Shown: positions 49,232-59,060 of the stretch, one piece after another
How positions within the stretch are numbered: position 1 is the stretch's first letter
How the letters are laid out: each line of letters begins with the position of its first letter
NCBI GenBank assembly: GCA_017410365.1
Contig: JAFQQY010000035.1
Coordinates: forward strand, 90,790 to 154,789
DNA from: Prevotella sp.
Lineage (GTDB): Bacteria > Bacteroidota > Bacteroidia > Bacteroidales > Bacteroidaceae
DNA length: 64,000 nucleotides
Reading direction: 5' to 3'
The notes under the pieces: model-generated
Seen by the model: the letters and a program-made list of their open reading frames with translations, nothing else
The model's database searches: none
What the model was told of the DNA's origin: nothing
Translations under genes and position numbers: made by a program

Positions 49232-49849
49232 ATGGGATACCTAATAAACATAATCCAATTCTCTTTCAGCAGTCTGATATGGGGCATACTTATCGCACTG
49301 GCATGCATGGCGCTATTTGTCTTTATAATCAAAGGATGGTGGAAAAATGCCATGTTCACAATCTGGTCATATCTGATAGGTGCCGTGCTTTTCATTTTAT
49401 TATCATTCCAATGCACCATGATTGTAGGTTCGCTGAAAATCATAGATACGACAGACGAATACGAAAAGTATTTTACAACTTTGGTTAATAGTGCTTATGA
49501 AGGATGGGAGGAAGTAACAGAAGCAGATGCCGACATAATAATCAAAAAAGCTATTGCAGAGTACCCTTTGCTTGAATATTATATCAGCGGAGGAGAGTTC
49601 TACGGGCATAGCGCCAAGCAACTGCCGTCGGTAATGGCAGACGAGTTGCGTTCGTTCATGTGGGCATACATAACAAGACGTCTGCTTTGGTGCCTTGGAT
49701 TTGTGATTGTGGCTGGTGTTTTGGGCATCAAGACCTTGAACAAATACAACCAGACATCAAGAGCTCATAGACCATCTGCTACTGATAGGATGAGCAGGCA
49801 AAGACCAGGCAACTCACATCGCCCACATATAAGCACTAGAAGAAGGTAA
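49232..49849 (+). CDS. membrane protein, first gene of the tubulin-like operon
   Basis: 205 residues, no family recognised. Two N-terminal transmembrane helices (about 12-34 and 40-68), a soluble acidic segment of about 75 residues (EYEKYFTTLVNSAYEGWEEV), a third helix (about 149-168), and a very basic C-terminal tail (SRQRPGNSHRPHISTRRR). The tail is expected to be cytoplasmic and could touch the acidic surface or C-terminal region of the tubulin-like protein encoded 37 bp downstream. A membrane anchor or receptor for that protein is the natural guess. No consensus promoter was found in the 180 bp upstream. The third codon positions are visibly richer in A/T than in the 44.5-48.2 kb genes. 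Confidence 0.65.
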   Translation: MGYLINIIQFSFSSLIWGILIALACMALFVFIIKGWWKNAMFTIWSYLIGAVLFILLSFQCTMIVGSLKIIDTTDEYEKYFTTLVNSAYEGWEEVTEADADIIIKKAIAEYPLLEYYISGGEFYGHSAKQLPSVMADELRSFMWAYITRRLLWCLGFVIVAGVLGIKTLNKYNQTSRAHRPSATDRMSRQRPGNSHRPHISTRRR

Positions 49850-49886
49850 AATACATAAAGCATAAATCTAAAACAACAATACTATT

Positions 49887-52800
49887 ATGACAACTAAAAA
49901 GAGTTTTTGCAGTGGCAACCACATCCTAGTCGGACTAGGAGGTACAGGTGGTAAGATATTGCGCGCTTTTAAGATGCGCATGTTTGAGGAGTTTCCTACA
50001 GCAGAGGAACGCAAGACACTACCTGTGTCTTTACTCTACATCGACTCTACAGACGAGATGATGCCTGTGGGTGGAAGGGCACGCCCTGACTTCAGGGTTA
50101 TGGGTCAAGATGCATCCTTTACAAACAATGAGTTTCTAAACATCAGAGCTGTTGATGTAGAGCATATACTCGACCATATCGGAAACTATCCATCAGTAAA
50201 AGGCATTGTGGAAAACGTTGGGGCGGTAAAATCAGCTATAGGTTCACTGGATAAGGCCGCAGGACAAAAACGACGTGCAGGACGCTTGCTCTTTGCTGCA
50301 AATGCAGTTGGCTACGTGAATAGCCTTAGAGACGCATACGCACGTTGCGAAAGTGTTTCTGGCGACTCAGGCAAACTGAATATACATATCTTTGCGGGAC
50401 TATGCGGTGGAACCGGTTCTGGGTCTATTGTCGACGTAACAGTACAGACACGAAAGGCTTTCCCTGATGCAAAAATAAATGTATTTGCAATGATTCCCGA
50501 AATGAACCTGCCAAAAGCAGACATGGACCAGGGCAGATACTATCAGAATGGATATGCAGCAATGAACGAGCTGAACGCATTGCAGGCAGGCAGATGGAAT
50601 CCTCAAGACGTGACAGGCCAAGGAGAAGCTAAGCTATACAACGACCGAGTGAAAGGTGTCGCTGACGGTCTTTCTATATACAGCAACGTAAACGAAAACG
50701 GTCTTACAATCAACTCTTTGGTTGAGCTACCAAAGGTTGTTAGCGACTATATCTTCGCACGCATCTTCTTCGTAAACGAAGAGGACAATATAAACGGAGA
50801 TCTGATACGTGCATACAACTTTGAAAACATGGACGATTTCGCACTGGAATATGACGAAGCAGCAAACGCAGGCAGTGATGGAAGGATACCAGTGGCGAGA
50901 ACAAAGAAAGTAAATTCGTTTGGTATCAAGCGTGTAATGTACCCAGAACTTCGCGTATTGAAACACATTACTTATACTGTTGGCGAAAGCGTTCTTTATC
51001 AATTCAAATACAATAATTGGAGGGAAAATCAAGGTTTCGTCAACGAAGAGAGAAACAAGGATTATCGCAAAGACTATCTGAACCCAGACAATCTGCAAAA
51101 CTGGATGCTTGATGACCTGCACCTGACCATGGAGGTGAAAGTTCTAGAATCTGATACTGAATATCCTAGATTCAGCGACTACTGGCATGACAAAGCAATA
51201 GCATACGCAGAAGAGGCAAAGAAGGCAGACTGCCCACTTAATGAGCTAGACAACATCATGGGCGAATTCTATTTGAGCCATTTCCGTGAAGAGGGTGTCG
51301 AAGCTTTCTTTAACGGAAAAGCAAAAGCCATTCCAGAAATAGCAAAGGAAATACGCCATAAGATTGAGTCTGAGCTTTTTGATAAGTGGAAGCTAGGCGA
51401 CGTTTCAATAATAGAACTTCAGAAAGTGTCTAAACTTTTGCTTGAGCGTATGGGCGAAATAAGAACCGAACTGGAAGCAAAATCTAAGACAGCAAAGGAA
51501 GATTACGAGGCATACGATCAGGATCGCATGGACAATGTAACGGAATGGAGCCGTCTGGGTATCTTACAACGTATGGTTGGTGCCGGTGCAAGAAGATATG
51601 CAGACCATCAAGGAATACTTACCGACTATTACACAGCAAAGACAATGCTTGTAGCATGGGAGTTTGCAAAGCAGCTAGCGGCCAAAGTTTTTGTTGAGTT
51701 GGGAAAGATGGATGCAGATATTCTATCATTCAGTCAAAAGATTAACGAGGCTATTGAGGAAACCGAACGACTTATTACCGCTCAGCGCAAGGTGAACAAG
51801 GGTCTTGAAGACATGAAGGGAGCAATAATTGAAGTCAGCGAGGACGAGGCTATGACTGAGTTTGAAGTGGAATTGAAGACTGACAAAATAGACATGCCAA
51901 ACATTTCGCGCCAATTACGAGAGTCTATACTGCCACAAGAAGACTTCATCAACTTTGGAAGACTGGCTAACGATATCACAATTGACGACATAAAGGATGC
52001 ATTTGACATTAAGCTGTCTGAGATTGTCAAGGCTAAGCATGACGAAAAAGCAGACAGCGACAACAAGGTGCTAGGCTTGAACATTCTTACACAGTTGCAG
52101 CAGAAACTTAAGACAGACGATGACATCAAGTCATTCGCCCACAACATAGTTGCTCAGAGTGGCGTATTCCTAAAACTGAATAACGACCAAATACAATTGC
52201 ACCTGAGAAACAATGAAGGAAATCTGAGCCCTACAAATCCAGCTAGTATAAACAAGAAAACCATTCTTGTCTCTATTCCTTCTCCTGATGAAAATGAAGG
52301 TCTGAAACGATTTGCAGACAAGCTAGAAGATGCTTTCAAGAACTCATTCAACCAAAGCACAGCACGAACAACAATAACAGTGAACCGCAAGAGTCCACGC
52401 AAGGATGAATTAAGCATTATCACCGTTTCCTACTGCTTCCCAATACGTGCAATCGACTGGATGGGACCTTACAAGCAGCGTTACGAGCAGTTCCTCAACA
52501 CAGGCAACCCAAATACTGACGCAAGCAATGCAATATTGCTACACAGTGAGGGTAACGGAAGCAAGCTACCTTCACTATTTGCTCTAAGCAATGAAGAGAT
52601 AGAGGCTAGACTGGCATCAGAGGCTAATGCGCAAGCAACAGCAAACACAGGCTTGGGCATTAATGCTGGAACACCAGAAATAACAACAGGGCCAGGAATG
52701 CCACCAGTTATCAATACCGCTCCAACCCCACCGCCCGTTAATCCACAAATTAACTTGTTCTTAGCAATAGGAGGGCAACAGTATGGTCCATACAACATGG

Positions 52801-52988
52801 ATATATGCAAGCAATTGGTTCAAAACGGACAGTTGACACCTCAAACTATGGTATGGATGGAAGGTATGGCAACATGGAGTCCAGCTGGACAAGTTACTGC
52901 TCTGCAAACATTGTTTGCACCTCCGGCAATACCAGGAATGCCACCAATGCCACCAATGGGAGGTCCTACCCCACCTCCAATGGGATAA
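49887..52988 (+). CDS. tubulin/FtsZ-superfamily protein (Tubulin_2 type) with GYF_2 domain
   Basis: 1033 residues. The N-terminus has the Rossmann loop ILVGLGGTGGKILRAF (13-28) and the tubulin signature loop GLCGGTGSGSIVD (about 171-183), the counterpart of GGGTGTG in FtsZ, so GTP binding is likely. The remainder up to about 900 is a long, mostly helical region unlike FtsZ, with coiled-coil stretches around 510-660. A Pro/Gly-rich linker (about 925-950) leads to a GYF_2 domain (about 953-1010, GGQQYGPYNMDICKQLVQNG ... MVWMEGMATWSP), a fold that binds proline-rich peptides, and then a Pro/Met tail. Large bacterial tubulin-like proteins of this kind have been proposed to act in membrane remodelling; none is well characterised. 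Cytoplasmic. Part of an eight-gene operon. Confidence 0.8.
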   Translation: MTTKKSFCSGNHILVGLGGTGGKILRAFKMRMFEEFPTAEERKTLPVSLLYIDSTDEMMPVGGRARPDFRVMGQDASFTNNEFLNIRAVDVEHILDHIGNYPSVKGIVENVGAVKSAIGSLDKAAGQKRRAGRLLFAANAVGYVNSLRDAYARCESVSGDSGKLNIHIFAGLCGGTGSGSIVDVTVQTRKAFPDAKINVFAMIPEMNLPKADMDQGRYYQNGYAAMNELNALQAGRWNPQDVTGQGEAKLYNDRVKGVADGLSIYSNVNENGLTINSLVELPKVVSDYIFARIFFVNEEDNINGDLIRAYNFENMDDFALEYDEAANAGSDGRIPVARTKKVNSFGIKRVMYPELRVLKHITYTVGESVLYQFKYNNWRENQGFVNEERNKDYRKDYLNPDNLQNWMLDDLHLTMEVKVLESDTEYPRFSDYWHDKAIAYAEEAKKADCPLNELDNIMGEFYLSHFREEGVEAFFNGKAKAIPEIAKEIRHKIESELFDKWKLGDVSIIELQKVSKLLLERMGEIRTELEAKSKTAKEDYEAYDQDRMDNVTEWSRLGILQRMVGAGARRYADHQGILTDYYTAKTMLVAWEFAKQLAAKVFVELGKMDADILSFSQKINEAIEETERLITAQRKVNKGLEDMKGAIIEVSEDEAMTEFEVELKTDKIDMPNISRQLRESILPQEDFINFGRLANDITIDDIKDAFDIKLSEIVKAKHDEKADSDNKVLGLNILTQLQQKLKTDDDIKSFAHNIVAQSGVFLKLNNDQIQLHLRNNEGNLSPTNPASINKKTILVSIPSPDENEGLKRFADKLEDAFKNSFNQSTARTTITVNRKSPRKDELSIITVSYCFPIRAIDWMGPYKQRYEQFLNTGNPNTDASNAILLHSEGNGSKLPSLFALSNEEIEARLASEANAQATANTGLGINAGTPEITTGPGMPPVINTAPTPPPVNPQINLFLAIGGQQYGPYNMDICKQLVQNGQLTPQTMVWMEGMATWSPAGQVTALQTLFAPPAIPGMPPMPPMGGPTPPPMG

Positions 52989-53061
52989 AACAAAATGTGG
53001 GGACAAAACAAAGCCCCACATCTAGCATATATTTAAATAAAAACATAAAAGATAAAAGAAA

Positions 53062-53685
53062 ATGGCAACATCAAGTAGAGGAGAACGACTTCGTTACAGA
53101 TATGGATTATGCCTTAACGACGGATGTTCAAAATGCAAATCAAAAGAAGTACAACAGATTGCAGCGAGAAAAGAATTTATTTGTTCAGAATGTGGCAAAC
53201 CGCTTCGAGAGTGCCCACCACCAATGACTTTCTGGCAGAAGAACGGGAAATTAATAATTGCAGCTATCATTGTCGCTGTCCTAGCAGCCATAGGTATCGG
53301 CTATGGCATTTGGGGAGGCGACAACGACACCAAAGCAAAGAAGGCAGAACCAACAGTTGTCAATGACACCATAAAGAAAGACACAGTGGCTGTTGACACA
53401 CCAAAGGTGAAAGAACCTGTTAAGGTTGATCCTAAGCCAATAAAAAAGCCATTGAATGGACGCGGTACAGTATATCTCGACTACGGAAAGTACACAGGCG
53501 ACTTGAAGAATGGCAAACCTCATGGCTATGGCAAAATAACCTACACGACAACAACCAAGATTGTAAATTCAAAGGATTTCGTTGCCAATCCTGGCGACAC
53601 CTTTGAGGGCGAGTTCCGTGATGGAAGAATCAGCGGACAAGGTTATTGGACTCATGACGGCAATCAGACTGTTGTAAAACCATGA
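53062..53685 (+). CDS. zinc-ribbon, single-TM, MORN-repeat protein
   Basis: 207 residues. N-terminal zinc ribbon with Cys17, Cys22, Cys25, Cys41, Cys44 and Cys51 (CSKC and CSEC pairs). A transmembrane helix follows (about 62-84, LIIAAIIVAVLAAIGIGYGIW), then a Lys/Pro/Thr-rich periplasmic linker (90-130). The C-terminal MORN-like part (about 130-205) carries GRGTVYLDYGKYTGDLKNGKPHGYG, TFEGEFRDGRISGQGYW. The layout places the zinc ribbon in the cytoplasm and the MORN repeats outside, so it could connect the tubulin-like protein to the exported partners. Its stop overlaps the next start by 4 bp (ATGA). Confidence 0.75.
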   Translation: MATSSRGERLRYRYGLCLNDGCSKCKSKEVQQIAARKEFICSECGKPLRECPPPMTFWQKNGKLIIAAIIVAVLAAIGIGYGIWGGDNDTKAKKAEPTVVNDTIKKDTVAVDTPKVKEPVKVDPKPIKKPLNGRGTVYLDYGKYTGDLKNGKPHGYGKITYTTTTKIVNSKDFVANPGDTFEGEFRDGRISGQGYWTHDGNQTVVKP

Positions 53686-54791
53686 TAAGAAAGCATGCTA
53701 TAATAATGATGGCTGTGGCATTAGCAGCAATTGCTAATGCCCAGCCATCGTTTTACACAAAATTGCATGCAAAAATTGCTGAGGCAGCAAAACTAACGAT
53801 ACCGGACACACTAAATGCCAATATCAACAACGATAGTACTTGGGCATACAACGGACGAACCATAAGAATACGCACTAATGTATACGGAGAAGTATCGCAT
53901 ATAGGGTACAAACTATTTGACAATGGGATAATTGATGCATATAAATCTAACGACATATTAAATTTCATTGAACGCTACGCTCTTGAACTGGATTTAAAAA
54001 TTGACGAAAGAAGCGCTGCAGAGAGAATGAGTGTGGACAAAGTGGTATGCGGTTGTGGAAACATAAACATGCTTCGCAACGTCAGAACCAACACGCCATT
54101 CTCGCTGGAAGAAAAACAAAGAAGAATGTTTAGAGCGAAATGGGATTTTAATGGCAAAGAATTGTGCATTACTATACCTGCAGACTGCCAACTGATTAAA
54201 GGAGCAAATGCCATAGAGCTGGAAGAACTATTTGAAAAAGGTATAAAGCGTATTGTTCCCATATCTGGCGATGAATTAATTGATGATTGGTCTATGTTCA
54301 ATGTTTCGAAAGCAGGGGATTTTCTAGTAGCCAACAGCGACAGGTACCTGAGCGAAATGATAAGAAGCGATATTTATCTAATTGAGAAGAATGGGAAAAG
54401 AAAACTTGTCGCCGATGAAAAGAACCCATTACAAAGTCTGAGAAACATTATGCTTACGGGGCATTTCTGGAAAGACATACCAATGTGCATGACGCTAAAT
54501 CAATATGGCTATAAATCAAAGGACATAAACGTTACGTTACAACAATTTATTGCCTATTGCCAACAAGAAGGATGCAAATTATATTTTGGTGTAAAAACAA
54601 GAGACAGCAATAGCATCAAGGGCACACTGTTCGCACTTAATACAGCAAATGCATACAATCATGTGCTGAGTGTCGACTTTCCACTTAGTTTGTTAAAAGA
54701 CGGCACTGGCACAATAAAAAGCGTAGCGTATGTATATATTCCTCTCCACAATATTACTGAGAAATTTTTTACTGAAGGTCTAACTAAATAA
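53682..54791 (+). CDS. exported protein of the tubulin-like operon, unknown function
   Basis: 369 residues; signal peptide MIRKHAIIMMAVALAAIANA. The mature protein is mixed alpha/beta without a family I recognise. Notable are a Cys-Gly-Cys-Gly (VVCGCGNINML) near residue 120 and repeated short amphipathic helices (ERYALELDLKID). Overlap by 4 bp with the MORN gene indicates translational coupling and a shared function. It is not a lipoprotein by its leader; periplasmic or outer-membrane-associated location expected. Confidence 0.6.
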   Translation: MIRKHAIIMMAVALAAIANAQPSFYTKLHAKIAEAAKLTIPDTLNANINNDSTWAYNGRTIRIRTNVYGEVSHIGYKLFDNGIIDAYKSNDILNFIERYALELDLKIDERSAAERMSVDKVVCGCGNINMLRNVRTNTPFSLEEKQRRMFRAKWDFNGKELCITIPADCQLIKGANAIELEELFEKGIKRIVPISGDELIDDWSMFNVSKAGDFLVANSDRYLSEMIRSDIYLIEKNGKRKLVADEKNPLQSLRNIMLTGHFWKDIPMCMTLNQYGYKSKDINVTLQQFIAYCQQEGCKLYFGVKTRDSNSIKGTLFALNTANAYNHVLSVDFPLSLLKDGTGTIKSVAYVYIPLHNITEKFFTEGLTK

Positions 54792-54800
54792 AATTTATTT

Positions 54801-55487
54801 ATGAATAAAAAGTTATTATTATTGCCTCTTCTATTGTTCTTGGTGGCCATTGGGACATCAGCACAAAATAACAAAGAAATTAAGAAACAGATTAATAACG
54901 TAAAGAAAAGCAATTTGTACCTATACGGAGAGTCTACAGCAACGACATTGGAAGAAGCCAAGAGCCAAGCAGAAGATATACTCTATGAGAGGATAAACGA
55001 ATGGGTGGCAAATAAAAAAAGAATGCAAAATAGCAGAAACATCGTTGTAAACAACAGAAAAGAGATTCTATCTGAAGTATCAATGCCACGCGGAAACATG
55101 CAGCGCTCATTTATCTATGTAAAAAAGAGCGACATAATAGCTACAGACAATACCGAAATAATAAAGAACACGACAACGCTGATGCCAAAAGCTGCAAAGG
55201 TAGAAAATGTTCAGCCAGAAGCTGTCGTAACATTATGCACATGTACAGAATACAGTGATCTGGCAACCAAAATCAAGCACCTCAAAGCAACAGGCAAGAT
55301 AGAGAGTTATGCAAGATATGCATCACTCGACAATCCGGAAGAATACTATCTCGCTATATACAACACTGCAGGTAAGGTTGTTGCAATACTTAGCCCTGGT
55401 AATTCGCGTAAGAACGTAAAAACCAACCAAATAGATAACATCACAAACTATAGTGGTTGTGGGGCAATTGGATTTAAAGTTAAATAA
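54801..55487 (+). CDS. exported LPP20-like protein of the tubulin-like operon
   Basis: 228 residues, signal peptide to GTSAQ. A central region reads YGESTATTLEEAKSQAEDILYERINEWV, the pattern of LPP20/FlgT-N-like domains (a G-E-G/S-x-T-x-x-E-A-x-x-x-A helix). The remainder is beta-rich with a Cys-x-Cys (LCTCTEY). Such domains occur in outer-membrane-associated assembly factors. Similarity is by eye only. Gap to the previous gene 9 bp. Confidence 0.55.
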   Translation: MNKKLLLLPLLLFLVAIGTSAQNNKEIKKQINNVKKSNLYLYGESTATTLEEAKSQAEDILYERINEWVANKKRMQNSRNIVVNNRKEILSEVSMPRGNMQRSFIYVKKSDIIATDNTEIIKNTTTLMPKAAKVENVQPEAVVTLCTCTEYSDLATKIKHLKATGKIESYARYASLDNPEEYYLAIYNTAGKVVAILSPGNSRKNVKTNQIDNITNYSGCGAIGFKVK

Positions 55488-55504
55488 TATTTCACATAAA
55501 GTTT

Positions 55505-56521
55505 ATGAAAAATAAAATATTTTTTCTTGTTTTAGCTCTGTTATGCATAACTAGTTCTATAAAGGCAGAGTATGCACCTGTAACTGTAACACTAACTACA
55601 GATGAAGGTGTTAACAGACCAATGGCAATATCTAATGCAGAAAGAAATCTTGGCATTGTGCTTACTGAGATAAACAGAGCTCAGGAAGCAAAAACAATAC
55701 TGACTACAAAACATCTGCCTATGGATGACTTCTCACTGAAGTCATTGATACGCCTATGGGCGGTAACCCCATTTTATTGCGATGACGAGGAAATAGTAGA
55801 ACGCTGTTGGATTTTCAAAGATGGTTCAATGATGGTAAGTCATATACCACTGATTATCACCCCAGAAGGCGAAGACTTCGGTATGGGTACATACCAAGAA
55901 GCTGTTGTCGAATTTGACAGAAATGGTAAAATAACAGACTTCCGTCTGGCCCTTGATGCTCATACTGCAGAGAGTATGGAAAGATGCGGTTCTGTGGTTG
56001 AAAAGGAAAAGCAAATGATTATATTGCAATATATAGAGCGATTCCGCACTGCATACAACCAGAAAGACATTCAAACTATTGAGCAGATGTTCAGTGATGA
56101 TGCTCTGATTATAACTGGCAAGGTGGTAATGAGCAAGAGAAACGATATCGGCAGAAGCCATGCAAAAGTGGAATACACAAAGCAGAATAAGCAACAATAT
56201 ATAAGAAACCTTAAACGTGCTTTCCTCGTTAACAAATGGATTGACATCAAGTTCAGTCAGATTGGTGACAATGGCGAAAGTGGCGGTTGCGCAGGCATTA
56301 CACGTTCAAAGGTTGACCCTACAAAATATGGTGTCAGACTGCATCAAAGCTGGAAATCAAGCAATTATAGCGACGAAGGGTATCTATTCCTTCTTTGGGA
56401 GTTCCCTGAGAATGGCGGAGAGCCGATAATCCATGTTAGGACATGGCAACCTGAATGGGCTGGTGGCGAACGCCTACAACCAGACGATGATATATCTACA
56501 TTGGGCGGTTTTGACCTATAA
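55505..56521 (+). CDS. exported protein with NTF2/SnoaL-like segment, tubulin-like operon
   Basis: 338 residues, signal peptide to IKAEY. The N-terminal third again contains the helix NAERNLGIVLTEINRAQEAKT. The middle (about 170-290) has the look of an NTF2/SnoaL-like cone fold (IERFRTAYNQKDIQTIEQMF then ALIITGKVVM), usually a ligand-binding or non-enzymatic scaffold. The C-terminus has HVRTWQPEW and an acidic end. Function unknown; spacing of 17 bp to its upstream neighbour places it firmly in the operon. Confidence 0.55.
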   Translation: MKNKIFFLVLALLCITSSIKAEYAPVTVTLTTDEGVNRPMAISNAERNLGIVLTEINRAQEAKTILTTKHLPMDDFSLKSLIRLWAVTPFYCDDEEIVERCWIFKDGSMMVSHIPLIITPEGEDFGMGTYQEAVVEFDRNGKITDFRLALDAHTAESMERCGSVVEKEKQMIILQYIERFRTAYNQKDIQTIEQMFSDDALIITGKVVMSKRNDIGRSHAKVEYTKQNKQQYIRNLKRAFLVNKWIDIKFSQIGDNGESGGCAGITRSKVDPTKYGVRLHQSWKSSNYSDEGYLFLLWEFPENGGEPIIHVRTWQPEWAGGERLQPDDDISTLGGFDL

Positions 56522-56552
56522 AAAACATAGTGAAAATATATAAGTATACATC

Positions 56553-58178
56553 ATGAAACGTATTCTATATCTACTATTGGCTTTAATTACATGCACTACA
56601 GCCATTGCACAAACAGATTTTATTTCTGACAGCAGATATGAAGATGCCGACCGCTTGGGTAACCTTGAGGGAAATGCAGGTATCTTAATCCTGTCCGAGC
56701 ACAATGATATTGTTGTGACAATAACAAATGTGCCTAACGGGCAGAAACAACCAGAGATAACACCAAAAGGCAAGGGTAGTTTCGGTTTTTATGAATATGA
56801 GATTGTTATAGACAAGACACAGATTCCTGAACCAAAGGTTGAGGTACACCGCCGTGGAGATGTGAGAAGAACCAGTTTTGTTGCTAAGGTTAAAGAAAAT
56901 CTTTTTACGGCATATTTAATAGAAGAAGTAGCAAAAAAAATCGGGCAAGAAAGCCTGCAGTCTGCATCCGATAGTTATTTAAATGAGAAATACGCAGCAA
57001 TTGAGCTCACATCTTCCGTGCCAGGTTTGAATGTAAAAGTATCCCCAATGCTTCAAGCCGAAGTAAAAAGTGAACAGCAGAAAACAGACAACAATATCAC
57101 TATTTTTACTATAGTTATACCTATTACCGTATTCAACGAAATAGAAACCAGATATAATACGGCTATAGCTGGGCTCAAGGAGGCAGAGGATGCTCTAGAA
57201 AAAGCAGAAGACGAAAACGAAAAAGGAAAGTTGAAAGACGAAAAACTTTTGGAATACATGGATAATGTAGAAAAATGCGAGAAAATCGTCGAACAAGTAA
57301 TAAAGGATCGCTCTGAATTAAGTTCTATAATTCTCTACGCTGAAGGTACCAACAAGCTTATAATAGACATTGGCGAAAGACTCACCCCTAGACAAAAGTT
57401 ATGCTACGGCATTATGCCTCTTGAAAAACCTGTACATGTTTCTGAGTGCAGCGGATTCCTCAACGAGGGTGGTAGATTGTACGGTCTGCGCAAATACAAA
57501 GAGGCCAAACAAGCTTTCACTCAAGCCCTTACTGCAAAAGATACCCCTAAAGACATGGTTACGTCTATTAAAAGCAACATTGCCCAATGTGACACATGTA
57601 TACAATATGAGAAATTGGCAATGATTTCACTTACAAAAATGAAGGAAGCCCAAAATAGTGGGAACTTGAATCAAGAGGAGGTTGTGAAATATTCTTCAGT
57701 TGCACTTGAATTTATTGAAGTACTGAATAAATATAACCCATGTGAGTTCTACAGCAAAAGGGTTGACCAGCTGAACTCTATGATAAAAGACCTGCCGTTG
57801 GCATTAAGGTTCAATATTGTCAGATGGTTAAAGAGTGCTTCAGGCTTTAGCGAAGGCGGTCCCTTCCCCAATGTCAAAATATGGGCATATTATGGCTCAA
57901 GCATACCATCTAAAGATTCATACAAAAATGAAAATCGATTCAAGAAACTAACATCATCATACAATTTTGAGTGGATAGGCACTACAGGGCAAGATGGAAG
58001 CCATGAAGTTACACTTAAGAGAAGCAATCTGCCTACAGGGTTTATGTTCCATGCAGCAAAGACAAAGACAATGGAATGCAGCATCTCTTATTTCGATGCA
58101 GACGACATAATTAAAAAAGCCGAAGGCACATACAACAAACGGCAGTTTAGAATCAGATTAGCAGTAATTGAAAAATAA
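56553..58178 (+). CDS. exported coiled-coil/TPR protein of the tubulin-like operon
   Basis: 541 residues, signal peptide to AIAQ. Beta-rich N-terminal region (about 25-130), a strongly charged coiled coil (about 200-260, EAEDALEKAEDENEKGKLKD), then TPR-like helices (about 300-400, GGRLYGLRKYKEAKQAFTQA), and a beta-sandwich end (about 430-541, GPFPNVKIWAYYGSS). It resembles periplasmic adaptor or receptor proteins that assemble complexes. No family recognised. Confidence 0.6.
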   Translation: MKRILYLLLALITCTTAIAQTDFISDSRYEDADRLGNLEGNAGILILSEHNDIVVTITNVPNGQKQPEITPKGKGSFGFYEYEIVIDKTQIPEPKVEVHRRGDVRRTSFVAKVKENLFTAYLIEEVAKKIGQESLQSASDSYLNEKYAAIELTSSVPGLNVKVSPMLQAEVKSEQQKTDNNITIFTIVIPITVFNEIETRYNTAIAGLKEAEDALEKAEDENEKGKLKDEKLLEYMDNVEKCEKIVEQVIKDRSELSSIILYAEGTNKLIIDIGERLTPRQKLCYGIMPLEKPVHVSECSGFLNEGGRLYGLRKYKEAKQAFTQALTAKDTPKDMVTSIKSNIAQCDTCIQYEKLAMISLTKMKEAQNSGNLNQEEVVKYSSVALEFIEVLNKYNPCEFYSKRVDQLNSMIKDLPLALRFNIVRWLKSASGFSEGGPFPNVKIWAYYGSSIPSKDSYKNENRFKKLTSSYNFEWIGTTGQDGSHEVTLKRSNLPTGFMFHAAKTKTMECSISYFDADDIIKKAEGTYNKRQFRIRLAVIEK

Positions 58179-58202
58179 TATTAACTAATAAATAAAACTA
58201 TT

Positions 58203-58955
58203 ATGAAAAAAAACACATTAGTTAAATTGCTCATAGCAATTTCACTGCTTACTTTCAGTAGCAACGCAGAAGCACAAGGTTTTTTAAAAAAGTTATCAAA
58301 AGCCGTTGATAAGGGTTTAAACGCAGTTGACAAAGGTCTAGACGCAGCAGACAAAGGTTTGGATGCCGCTGACAAGGCATTAAATGCCACAAGCACCACA
58401 CCTAGCGACAGTACAAAAAAAATAAAATGGGAAGCCATACCTATTTACAAACCACAAAAAATATCTATTGTTGACGCAAACGGGCAACCAGTGTTAAATG
58501 AAGACGGCACTCAGAAATTCAGAATGGTACTGGTTGACCAGTTCGGAAAGGAACGAAGTCAGACAGCCGTAAAGGAGCAGAACAAAAAACTTTGGTCTGC
58601 TGTAGGTGCTATTGCAGGCAAAGTGGGTATTGGAGCTATTGCAGGCGGTGCGCTTAAGGGTGACCTTAAAGGTGCCGCAGTAGGAGCAGCTACAGGTGCT
58701 TTGGCAAGTGCCGACGACATAAAGATGGCAGTTGCCATGAAGAAAACACTGAAACAGCAGAAGAAACTGCTGGAGCAGATGGGTAAAGACTTTAACGAAG
58801 AAGGTGAGCCAAAAGATGCCAAAGTTGACACTTCAAGTTATAAAGATTACGGACTGACAGAAGACAACACCGTCTCAAAAACAGCAGAGGAATTGAAAAC
58901 TCTTATTGACAGCCCAGAATACAACACTACAGACGATAGTGCTTGGGAGTTTTAA
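58203..58955 (+). CDS. exported heptad-repeat/glycine-zipper protein, last gene of the operon
   Basis: 250 residues, signal peptide to AEAQ. Four nearly identical heptads (AVDKGLN, AVDKGLD, AADKGLD, AADKALN; 21-bp repeats at 58302-58385) form an amphipathic helix. A Gly/Ala-rich stretch near 145-172 (GIGAIAGGALKGDLKGAAVG) looks like a glycine zipper that could insert in or oligomerise on a membrane, followed by a charged helix (KKTLKQQKKLLEQMGKDF). The family is unknown. A hairpin-T6 terminator follows directly. Confidence 0.6.
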   Translation: MKKNTLVKLLIAISLLTFSSNAEAQGFLKKLSKAVDKGLNAVDKGLDAADKGLDAADKALNATSTTPSDSTKKIKWEAIPIYKPQKISIVDANGQPVLNEDGTQKFRMVLVDQFGKERSQTAVKEQNKKLWSAVGAIAGKVGIGAIAGGALKGDLKGAAVGAATGALASADDIKMAVAMKKTLKQQKKLLEQMGKDFNEEGEPKDAKVDTSSYKDYGLTEDNTVSKTAEELKTLIDSPEYNTTDDSAWEF

Positions 58956-58978
58956 TTAAATCAACATTTACCATAGTC

Positions 58979-59014
58979 GGCGGATAACTGAACAACAGCT
59001 AATCCGCCTTTTTT
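58979..59014 (+). terminator. terminator of the tubulin-like operon
   Basis: Stem GGCGGATAACTG / CAGCTAATCCGCC (small internal mismatch) followed by TTTTTT, 24 bp after the last stop codon. Classical intrinsic terminator. Confidence 0.85.
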
Positions 59015-59018
59015 CATA

Positions 59019-59060
59019 TTGAGACCGGAACTTATTCAATAGATATGATTCCGGCCTCAA
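59019..59060 (-). terminator. terminator of the RNase R gene
   Basis: Arms TTGAGACCGGAA and TTCCGGCCTCAA with one mismatch, loop of 18 nt, 22 bp after the rnr stop. In the minus direction the following sequence is not T-rich at once, so efficiency is uncertain. Confidence 0.55.

Follow-up and report, generated by a model that had tools for sequence, protein, structure and literature searches.

An eight-gene Prevotella operon joins a long Tubulin_2 protein to a putative zinc ribbon–MORN membrane adaptor and to exported proteins that recur in kinase and TIR loci

The FtsZl1 (Tubulin_2) family was described in 2010 by Makarova and Koonin, who predicted for it a role in membrane remodelling. According to the accessible part of that paper (PMC2875224), FtsZl1 operons are rich in membrane proteins, with vWA, GTPase, protein kinase and OmpA genes found in the majority of them rather than universally; additionally, the C-terminal region is given as a long coiled-coil plus helical one, and Bacteroides caccae is named in the alignment legend. 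Systems centred on GAP1-N2 GTPases and containing tubulin have been proposed as conflict systems, with a tubulin-centred version reported from firmicutes and actinobacteria (Kaur et al., 2020; PMC7159879, as far as its text was available), and the available portion of a further study treats Tubulin_2 as a divergent outgroup (PMC9871819). Here we describe an eight-gene operon (p1–p8, positions 49232..58955) within a 64,000 nt stretch of Prevotella sp. DNA (assembly GCA_017410365.1, contig JAFQQY010000035.1, positions 90,790 to 154,789 of the forward strand), which is hereafter called the window and in whose positions all operon coordinates are given. The second gene specifies a long Tubulin_2 protein (p2), set between two predicted membrane proteins (p1 and p3) and followed by five predicted exported proteins (p4–p8; Table 1). 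It resembles FtsZl1 in its N-terminal FtsZ-like GTP-binding region, its length (∼1000 residues; 1033 in p2), the separate FtsZ in the genome and the membrane-rich partners. A preliminary description made from the sequence alone had not recognised in these genes any system already described, and our literature search agrees with this: we found no description of the eight-gene operon, the family itself being covered by the available parts of PMC2875224 and PMC7159879, and no test of FtsZl1/Tubulin_2 function, whilst publications on GYF, PEGA and GltJ yielded nothing on the operon.

In order to assess conservation, a contig scan was performed, of whose 97 related stretches the best 80 were retained, representing 73 distinct loci; genome searches added more. 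A six-frame count with hidden Markov models (HMMs) then covered 106 loci, 104 of them with p2, and 99 after the removal of five duplicates. Of these, 82 were of the window type and 17 were set aside, including three (L116, L143 and L144) that are probably window-type loci cut by contig ends. The 82 non-redundant window-type loci are nearly all from Bacteroidales; two loci labelled Clostridium and Lachnospiraceae (L125 and L136) were taken for mis-binned Bacteroidales by assumption. Carriers include some gut bacteria, and a cultured commensal is among them, Xylanibacter brevis ATCC 19188 (L072). Where the contig had room, p1 was present in 70/77 loci, p3 in 74/74, p4 in 72/73, p5 in 70/72 and p6 in 70/70, with p7 (42/65) and p8 (38/63) being variable. 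The preliminary description had named unrelated neighbours of the tubulin-like homologues as grounds for abandoning the idea of a system; in fact, these neighbours are related across genomes, with p3–p6 nearly always present and gene order collinear in all 72 loci that carry at least three of p3–p8. As judged from this comparison, p1–p6 evidently constitute one inherited unit. Furthermore, since the gene order returns across dozens of species, the eight-gene operon is confirmed as a real, conserved unit and not a chance arrangement.

The exported genes were also found apart from the tubulin-like gene. We matched p6 in 33 of 100 genomes of the genus and 48 of 393 genomes of the order (p5–p6 fusions included), and 34 stretches around such genes were read, 20 of which contained p4 and none of which contained p2. 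One of the 20, L238, was left out, since its sequence begins at a contig end and its genome (G338) has p2–p3 at the end of another contig; this locus is probably one half of a tubulin operon. The neighbourhoods of these tubulin-less p4 and p6 genes include protein kinase, PP2C, FHA, LytTR, caspase and TIR genes. In six of the 19 remaining p4 loci, the protein directly upstream of p4 has a transmembrane (TM) segment and a p3-type MORN part with another cytoplasmic head: a kinase in L181 and L228 (Pfam Pkinase), a kinase-like domain in L178 and L180 (short, recognized by eye), a TIR domain in L231 (Pfam) and a different zinc ribbon in L193 (Pfam matches below cut-off). Using an HMM made from the MORN part of p3 alone, without TM segment or linker, and counting matches outside the training loci, we recovered each of these proteins next to p4 (L181, 7e-19; L228, 2e-13; L180, 3e-10; L178, 1e-07; L231, 1e-19; L193, 6e-24). 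Weaker matches were to the kinases of L187 (3e-06) and L186 (1e-04), which belong to the same cluster type and do not adjoin p4. The remaining matches were L097, a window-type p3 whose shortness had kept it out of the training set, the three p3 proteins of L268–L270, and one unrelated protein (E 0.017–0.018). The opposite swap was found as well, with distant p2 relatives preceding a zinc-ribbon-TM-TPR protein in L258 (Paraburkholderia) and a zinc-ribbon-TM-PBP-OmpA protein in L259, both matched by the full p3 HMM (1e-10 and 4e-13, respectively). On this sequence evidence, kinase and TIR heads evidently replace the zinc ribbon at the p3 position in some tubulin-less loci; the MORN part of p3 usually travels with exported p4 and p6, and the zinc-ribbon/TM part with the tubulin-like protein. 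Because the head is swapped in tubulin-less loci and the reverse is seen in L258 and L259, p3 looks like a two-sided adaptor, with its zinc ribbon directed to the tubulin and its MORN part to the exported complex. We regard this logic of operon and adaptor as likely, and hold it with good confidence.

For the central protein, Tubulin_2 (PF13809) matched p2 residues 13–369 at 5.4e-47 (161 bits, against a cut-off of 27), with PF00091 giving only 19 bits (cut-off 33). In a single profile comparison with 20 FtsZ-type proteins, the T3 and T4 loops of p2 aligned with FtsZ at E 3.5e-05, and five unrelated profiles set against the FtsZ profile reached E 0.048 or worse. Moreover, GGTGSG (residues 174–179) is invariant in 28 aligned homologues, and the mean column identity of p2 (63 %) is the highest among the six families aligned. 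The assignment of the 1033-residue protein to the tubulin superfamily, first made without database searches, is upheld by the PF13809 match and by the T3 and T4 alignments. Tubulin-type nucleotide binding by p2 is very probable on these motifs, whilst the formation of a polymer is somewhat favoured. The notion that p2 replaces the cell-division FtsZ was rejected, since each of the 18 genomes searched, among them 15 operon carriers, has a separate FtsZ-type (PF00091) gene. Two features had been overlooked in the first reading. One is the GYF_2 domain of p2, matched nowhere else in the host genome assembly (89.4 % complete), for which the nearest solved chain was 7z3c (Adventurous gliding motility protein X; E 3.5e-07). 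The other is the Pro-rich tail, as 27 of the 28 aligned homologues have at least six Pro among their final 25 residues.

A polymer of p2 might serve membrane remodelling in the sense of Makarova and Koonin, shaping the envelope or vesicles, with p1 and p3 as anchors and p4–p8 as structural components. The common protein family, the membrane-protein-rich operons of FtsZl1 (accessible part of PMC2875224), the invariant GTP-loop residues of p2 and the LPP20-like character of p5, as seen through its relatives, would all accord with this. However, p1–p8 had no vWA, GTPase or OmpA match in Pfam, and p4 and p6 occur near kinase, TIR, FHA/PP2C and caspase genes without any tubulin, making filament remodelling unlikely as the common purpose. 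As such, we consider remodelling an unlikely explanation; because the exported part is not specific to the tubulin, a role as regulatory switch or signal output is the better fit, compared with a filament devoted to remodelling.

Regarding the membrane partners, MORN was matched on p3 at 5.9e-08 (Pfam); zinc-ribbon models reached only sub-cut-off scores on this protein, and the four-Cys pattern is present in 58 of 75 p3 homologues. The tail of p1 is Arg-rich and predicted to be cytoplasmic. The membrane and envelope character of the gene set, and the role of the MORN protein as a link, are supported as proposed in the preliminary description. GYF domains bind proline-rich ligands. We scored GYF in p2 by HMM across 73 loci and found it in 63, 52 of which have a PPP motif after the zinc ribbon of p3; none of the 10 loci without GYF has PPP. 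As one gain suffices to produce this pattern, the covariation amounts to about one historical event, and the Fisher value of 6e-07 is not counted as strength. One further case, from another lineage, is L261 (G554), in which a p2-profile protein (1e-45) has its own GYF and the next protein shows, by eye, cysteines of zinc-ribbon type together with a stretch rich in Pro. Separately, a GYF_2 domain fused to an SPFH/Band-7 protein was observed in another class of the phylum (L263:2946-4037).

A number of observations weigh against p2 as a typical tubulin and p3 as its adaptor. T1 of p2 aligned with FtsZ only in a second alignment, in the right order and at a non-significant E of 0.054; the T1 assignment thus comes from the invariance of GLGGTGG only, since the FtsZ alignment is no better than the best unrelated profile (0.048). 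T7 and the filament interface were not identified in p2 by profile comparison with FtsZ, and FtsZl1 is described, in the accessible text of PMC2875224, as having no recognisable T6–H7 elements. Among the GYF loci without a scored PPP, seven truly have none and four are unscorable by pattern; L135 and L136, which have GYF and no PPP, branch early, and one change accounts for GYF on the p2 tree. Furthermore, 13 of the 19 tubulin-less p4 loci have no swapped MORN head upstream of p4, the position being taken by an exported protein (TPR/Sel1 or another), by an FHA protein, by an unrelated gene or by a protein of the L177 type. In L177, the zinc-ribbon-TM protein ends in Sel1-like repeats rather than MORN, and is an exception to the MORN–p4 rule. 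Finally, p5 is recognisable in only eight of these 19 loci, and the zinc-ribbon HMM misses the Cys-rich heads of L268–L270 and reaches only E 0.0068 on L258.

For the exported proteins, the five signal peptides ascribed earlier are consistent with hydrophobic N-termini across the families of p4 (74/77 ORFs), p5 (68/70), p6 (71/73), p7 (50/50) and p8 (44/44), as called by our own hydropathy heuristic rather than a signal-peptide predictor. No Pfam match was found for p4 in 34 members at E 0.01, and PDB profile searches with p4, p5, p6 and p7 returned nothing usable. LPP20 (PF02169) was not matched on p5 of the window and was found in one of 31 p5 proteins (E 0.0096), whilst the p5–p6 fusion of L190 carries it above cut-off (28.1 vs 25.9). 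Below cut-off, DUF4440 was matched on p6 (3.2e-4) and Cds6_C in the L190 fusion (0.0022). Such exported p5–p6 fusions of ∼600 aa are widespread (L190:4548-6359, L191, L233, L237 and L239; LPP20 plus NTF2-like in L190), and often adjoin an exported protein that is PEGA-type by eye. Amongst 26 p7 homologues, two gave a TPR signal and three a CarboxypepD_reg-like one. The N-terminal 220 residues of p7 match a group of six proteins encoded after p6 in loci that lack the tubulin or are of other kinds (hhalign 96.5 %, 9e-10); with the PEGA-type group they reach 86.8 % over 47 columns (hhalign).

The genes that follow p6 are notably exchangeable: of 98 such genes, 52 were matched by the profile of p7 and one by that of p6, whilst 45 had no match among the eight profiles. 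Ten proteins from five window-type loci without p7 included seven with PEGA, four of these also with FGE-sulfatase, all above cut-off; in the tubulin-less L182 the post-p6 gene encodes an outer-membrane barrel protein. This variety, and the PEGA and FGE-sulfatase proteins in particular, would suit secretion or surface display, with p4–p6 as an exporter that places p7, p8, PEGA and FGE proteins on the surface and the cytoplasmic heads only regulating it. Such a function is improbable in our view, given that p1–p8 have no recognisable channel or motor in Pfam and that p4 has no family or structure match.

To compare rates of change, we used locus pairs in which p2 is 80–85 % identical, setting aside lower-identity bins that held truncated or distant rows. 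Median identities were 39 % for p1, 41 % for p3, 23 % for p4, 30 % for p5, 43 % for p6, 19 % for p7 and 21 % for p8, with wide 5–95 % ranges (20–50 % for p4) and low rank correlations with p2 identity (p4, 0.25; p7, 0.01; p8, 0.07). The cytoplasmic part is conserved and the parts outside either change rapidly or are swapped, as expected if exported parts meet changing partners or get replaced. Tubulin_2 was over cut-off in 15 of 100 genus genomes (eight window-type) and in 15 of 393 order genomes (eight window-type). Long matches to the p2 profile were found, among 395 phylum genomes, in the operon's own genome, G204 and G841, with most other matches covering the GYF part only; among 295 genomes of the class, p2-p3-p4-p6 occurred in order in three, all from other orders and with no GYF match in p2. 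Flanking genes mostly differ between loci (154 flank gene clusters in 87 loci, counted without a housekeeping control). A kinase protein lies near the tubulin operon in eight of 87 window-type loci (phmmer; two on the same contig), and upstream on the same strand in seven (again two on the same contig).

This patchy spread, the fast-changing exported parts and the differing flanks are what might be seen in a conflict or defence system, in which envelope sensors of phage or competitor attack would trigger a tubulin, kinase or TIR response. Sister loci and other Tubulin_2 loci that encode TIR, caspase, AAA, trypsin-like and FGE domains point the same way, as does the proposal of GAP1-N2 tubulin systems as conflict systems (PMC7159879, as available). 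Nevertheless, five of the eight products are exported, a Pfam search of p1–p8 revealed no recognisable killing domain, and the flank differences, having no housekeeping control, may be ordinary rearrangement. Membership of a known anti-phage defence system was rejected, as PADLOC gave only two zinc-ribbon matches in p3 (E 0.12 and 0.32), and overall we find a defence role rather unlikely. A plasmid- or phage-borne operon was likewise rejected: there was just one Paraburkholderia plasmid match (26.8 % identity) and two weak phage matches, one on part of the tubulin region and one on GYF.

The eight ORFs are collinear on the + strand with gaps of 37, 73, −4, 9, 17, 31 and 24 bp, all of them placed as originally described, with no gap over 73 bp and one 4-bp overlap. 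The claimed terminator, a stem with six T, also stood (Table 1): the region 58956–59060 folds at −28.8 kcal/mol (z −4.96, 0/200 shuffles as good), an energy that comes partly from a second hairpin beside the convergent downstream gene. The 5′ neighbour of the operon is an HlyIII-family gene on the opposite strand, and the 3′ neighbour is a convergent gene, which we take to resemble RNase R.

Table 1. Features of the operon and its products, in window coordinates
Feature	Position	Strand	Description
p1	49232..49849	+	205-aa membrane protein; predicted TM 15-33, 48-66, 147-165 (hydropathy)
p2	49887..52988	+	1033-aa Tubulin_2 (FtsZl1-type), C-terminal GYF_2, Pro-rich tail
p2 T1-like loop GLGGTGG, residues 16-22	49932..49952	+	Invariant in 28 aligned homologues
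p2 T3-like loop AAGQKRRAGR, residues 124-133	50256..50285	+	Aligns with FtsZ GAG..PE.GR
p2 T4 tubulin signature GGTGSGS, residues 174-180	50406..50426	+	Aligns with FtsZ GGGTGTG
p2 GYF_2, residues 958-1006	52758..52904	+	Pfam 3.8e-15
p2 Pro-rich C-terminal tail	52920..52985	+	From sequence and homologue alignment
p3	53062..53685	+	Predicted transducer of 207 aa with zinc ribbon, PPP motif, a single TM segment (65-83) and periplasmic MORN
p3 periplasmic MORN part, residues 129-207	53446..53682	+	Common to kinase- and TIR-headed proteins
p4	53682..54791	+	369-aa exported protein
p5	54801..55487	+	228-aa exported protein; LPP20-like via relatives; fused with p6 in other loci
p6	55505..56521	+	338-aa exported protein; NTF2-like (DUF4440/Cds6_C) C-terminal half
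p7	56553..58178	+	541-aa exported protein; N-domain common to post-p6 proteins of tubulin-less loci
p8	58203..58955	+	250-aa exported protein; glycine-zipper-like stretch, sub-threshold matches
Intrinsic terminator	58979..59014	+	Stem GGCGGAT..ATCCGCC plus six T; element passed over by a simple terminator scan

Several further loci were recorded in the course of this work. The kinase near the operon is exemplified by L127:5528-7048, with relatives in L098, L101, L049/L085, L086, L052 and L133. A p4 and p6 cluster at L187:4869-15292 contains caspase, LytTR, FHA, PP2C, kinase and FGE-sulfatase genes (Pfam), with similar clusters in L185 (caspase plus Sel1) and L186 (by eye). A small lipoprotein-like protein, DUF6565-like below cut-off, is common to window-type and other Tubulin_2 loci (L268:13980-14381, L270:14223-14615, L131:9026-9433, L044:11341-11739). 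Other kinds of Tubulin_2 locus include L063, where vWA-like (below cut-off) and trypsin-like genes adjoin, and L044:636-11328 of the same genus, with an AAA ATPase upstream, a 1175-aa papain-like protein downstream and TIR-like ORFs nearby (by eye). The operon's own genome encodes a 512-aa Tubulin_2-like protein on contig C18 (L071:7728-9263; 26 bits vs cut-off 27), and weak Tubulin_2 matches to ORFs of this size occur in six other genus genomes, which may possibly belong to the same family.

Our preferred reading is of an envelope machine that spans the membrane and whose cytoplasmic drivers can be interchanged, having here a tubulin-family scaffold as its output, a proposal to which we give just short of an even chance. 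The LPP20 fold is found in FlgP, Lpp20 and FlgT, of which FlgP and FlgT form outer-membrane rings (PMC12222027, accessible part). Because p5 is LPP20-like through its relatives and these ring proteins have that fold, p4–p6 may form a periplasmic or outer-membrane complex, which would display or feed the changing exported proteins (p7/p8, PEGA and FGE-sulfatase). The MORN part of p3 would read or hold this complex, so that a change crosses the membrane via p3, whose zinc ribbon and PPP motif would dock the tubulin-like protein, partly through GYF, with p1 as a membrane co-anchor. The tubulin-like NTPase might then assemble or disassemble under the membrane as a switch that clusters many transducers, and in so doing could do what phosphorylation or TIR chemistry does in sister loci. 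Whether signalling runs outside-in rather than inside-out we judge to be evenly balanced. A more specific version, in which the tubulin-family NTPase is the cytoplasmic output of a modular receptor, evolutionarily interchangeable with kinase or TIR on a MORN sensor plus p4/p6, is put forward tentatively and is less probable than its alternatives taken together. From the earlier model of a GTP-driven envelope scaffold, the tubulin family, the envelope nature and the MORN link are retained, and the exported part proves not to be specific to the tubulin. The tubulin family was known; what is new is the reading of p3 as a two-sided adaptor whose cytoplasmic head is exchanged, and the compact conserved partner set gives a sharp hypothesis of zinc ribbon with tubulin, MORN with p4–p6 and GYF with PPP. 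If the head swap is true, tubulin assembly would join the signal outputs and cytoskeletal assembly would be a signalling currency across the bacterial envelope, which would surprise specialists in cytoskeleton and signalling alike; it would also define an exported module shared within Bacteroidota, and we found no name given to this module.

Compared with the GAP1-N2 systems, as far as the available text of PMC7159879 describes them, the operon likewise places a tubulin-family protein with an extended C-terminal region in a multi-gene system linked to the membrane, and that class also includes zinc ribbon, GYF, PEGA, NTF2 and FGE-type domains; it differs in that p1–p8 had no TRAFAC GTPase, vWA or HSP70 in a Pfam search, in which no GAP1 model was run. 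Likeness to LPP20, FlgP and FlgT is seen in the p5–p6 fusion of L190, the window p5 itself having no LPP20 match. GltJ carries a cytoplasmic zinc ribbon ahead of its TM segment and periplasmic part. The operon resembles GltJ/AgmX of Myxococcus gliding in its GYF domain (7z3c, E 3.5e-07); in the operon, however, GYF and zinc ribbon are on two separate proteins, and membership was rejected since the full-length GltJ model gave 31.1 bits against a cut-off of 450, on the GYF part only. In comparison with FtsZl1, p1–p8 have no vWA, GTPase or OmpA Pfam match and no kinase; instead, the operon has a fixed p1–p6 set, a zinc-ribbon-TM-MORN transducer, GYF_2 with a Pro-rich tail, and exported p4 and p6 proteins that are common to kinase and TIR loci.

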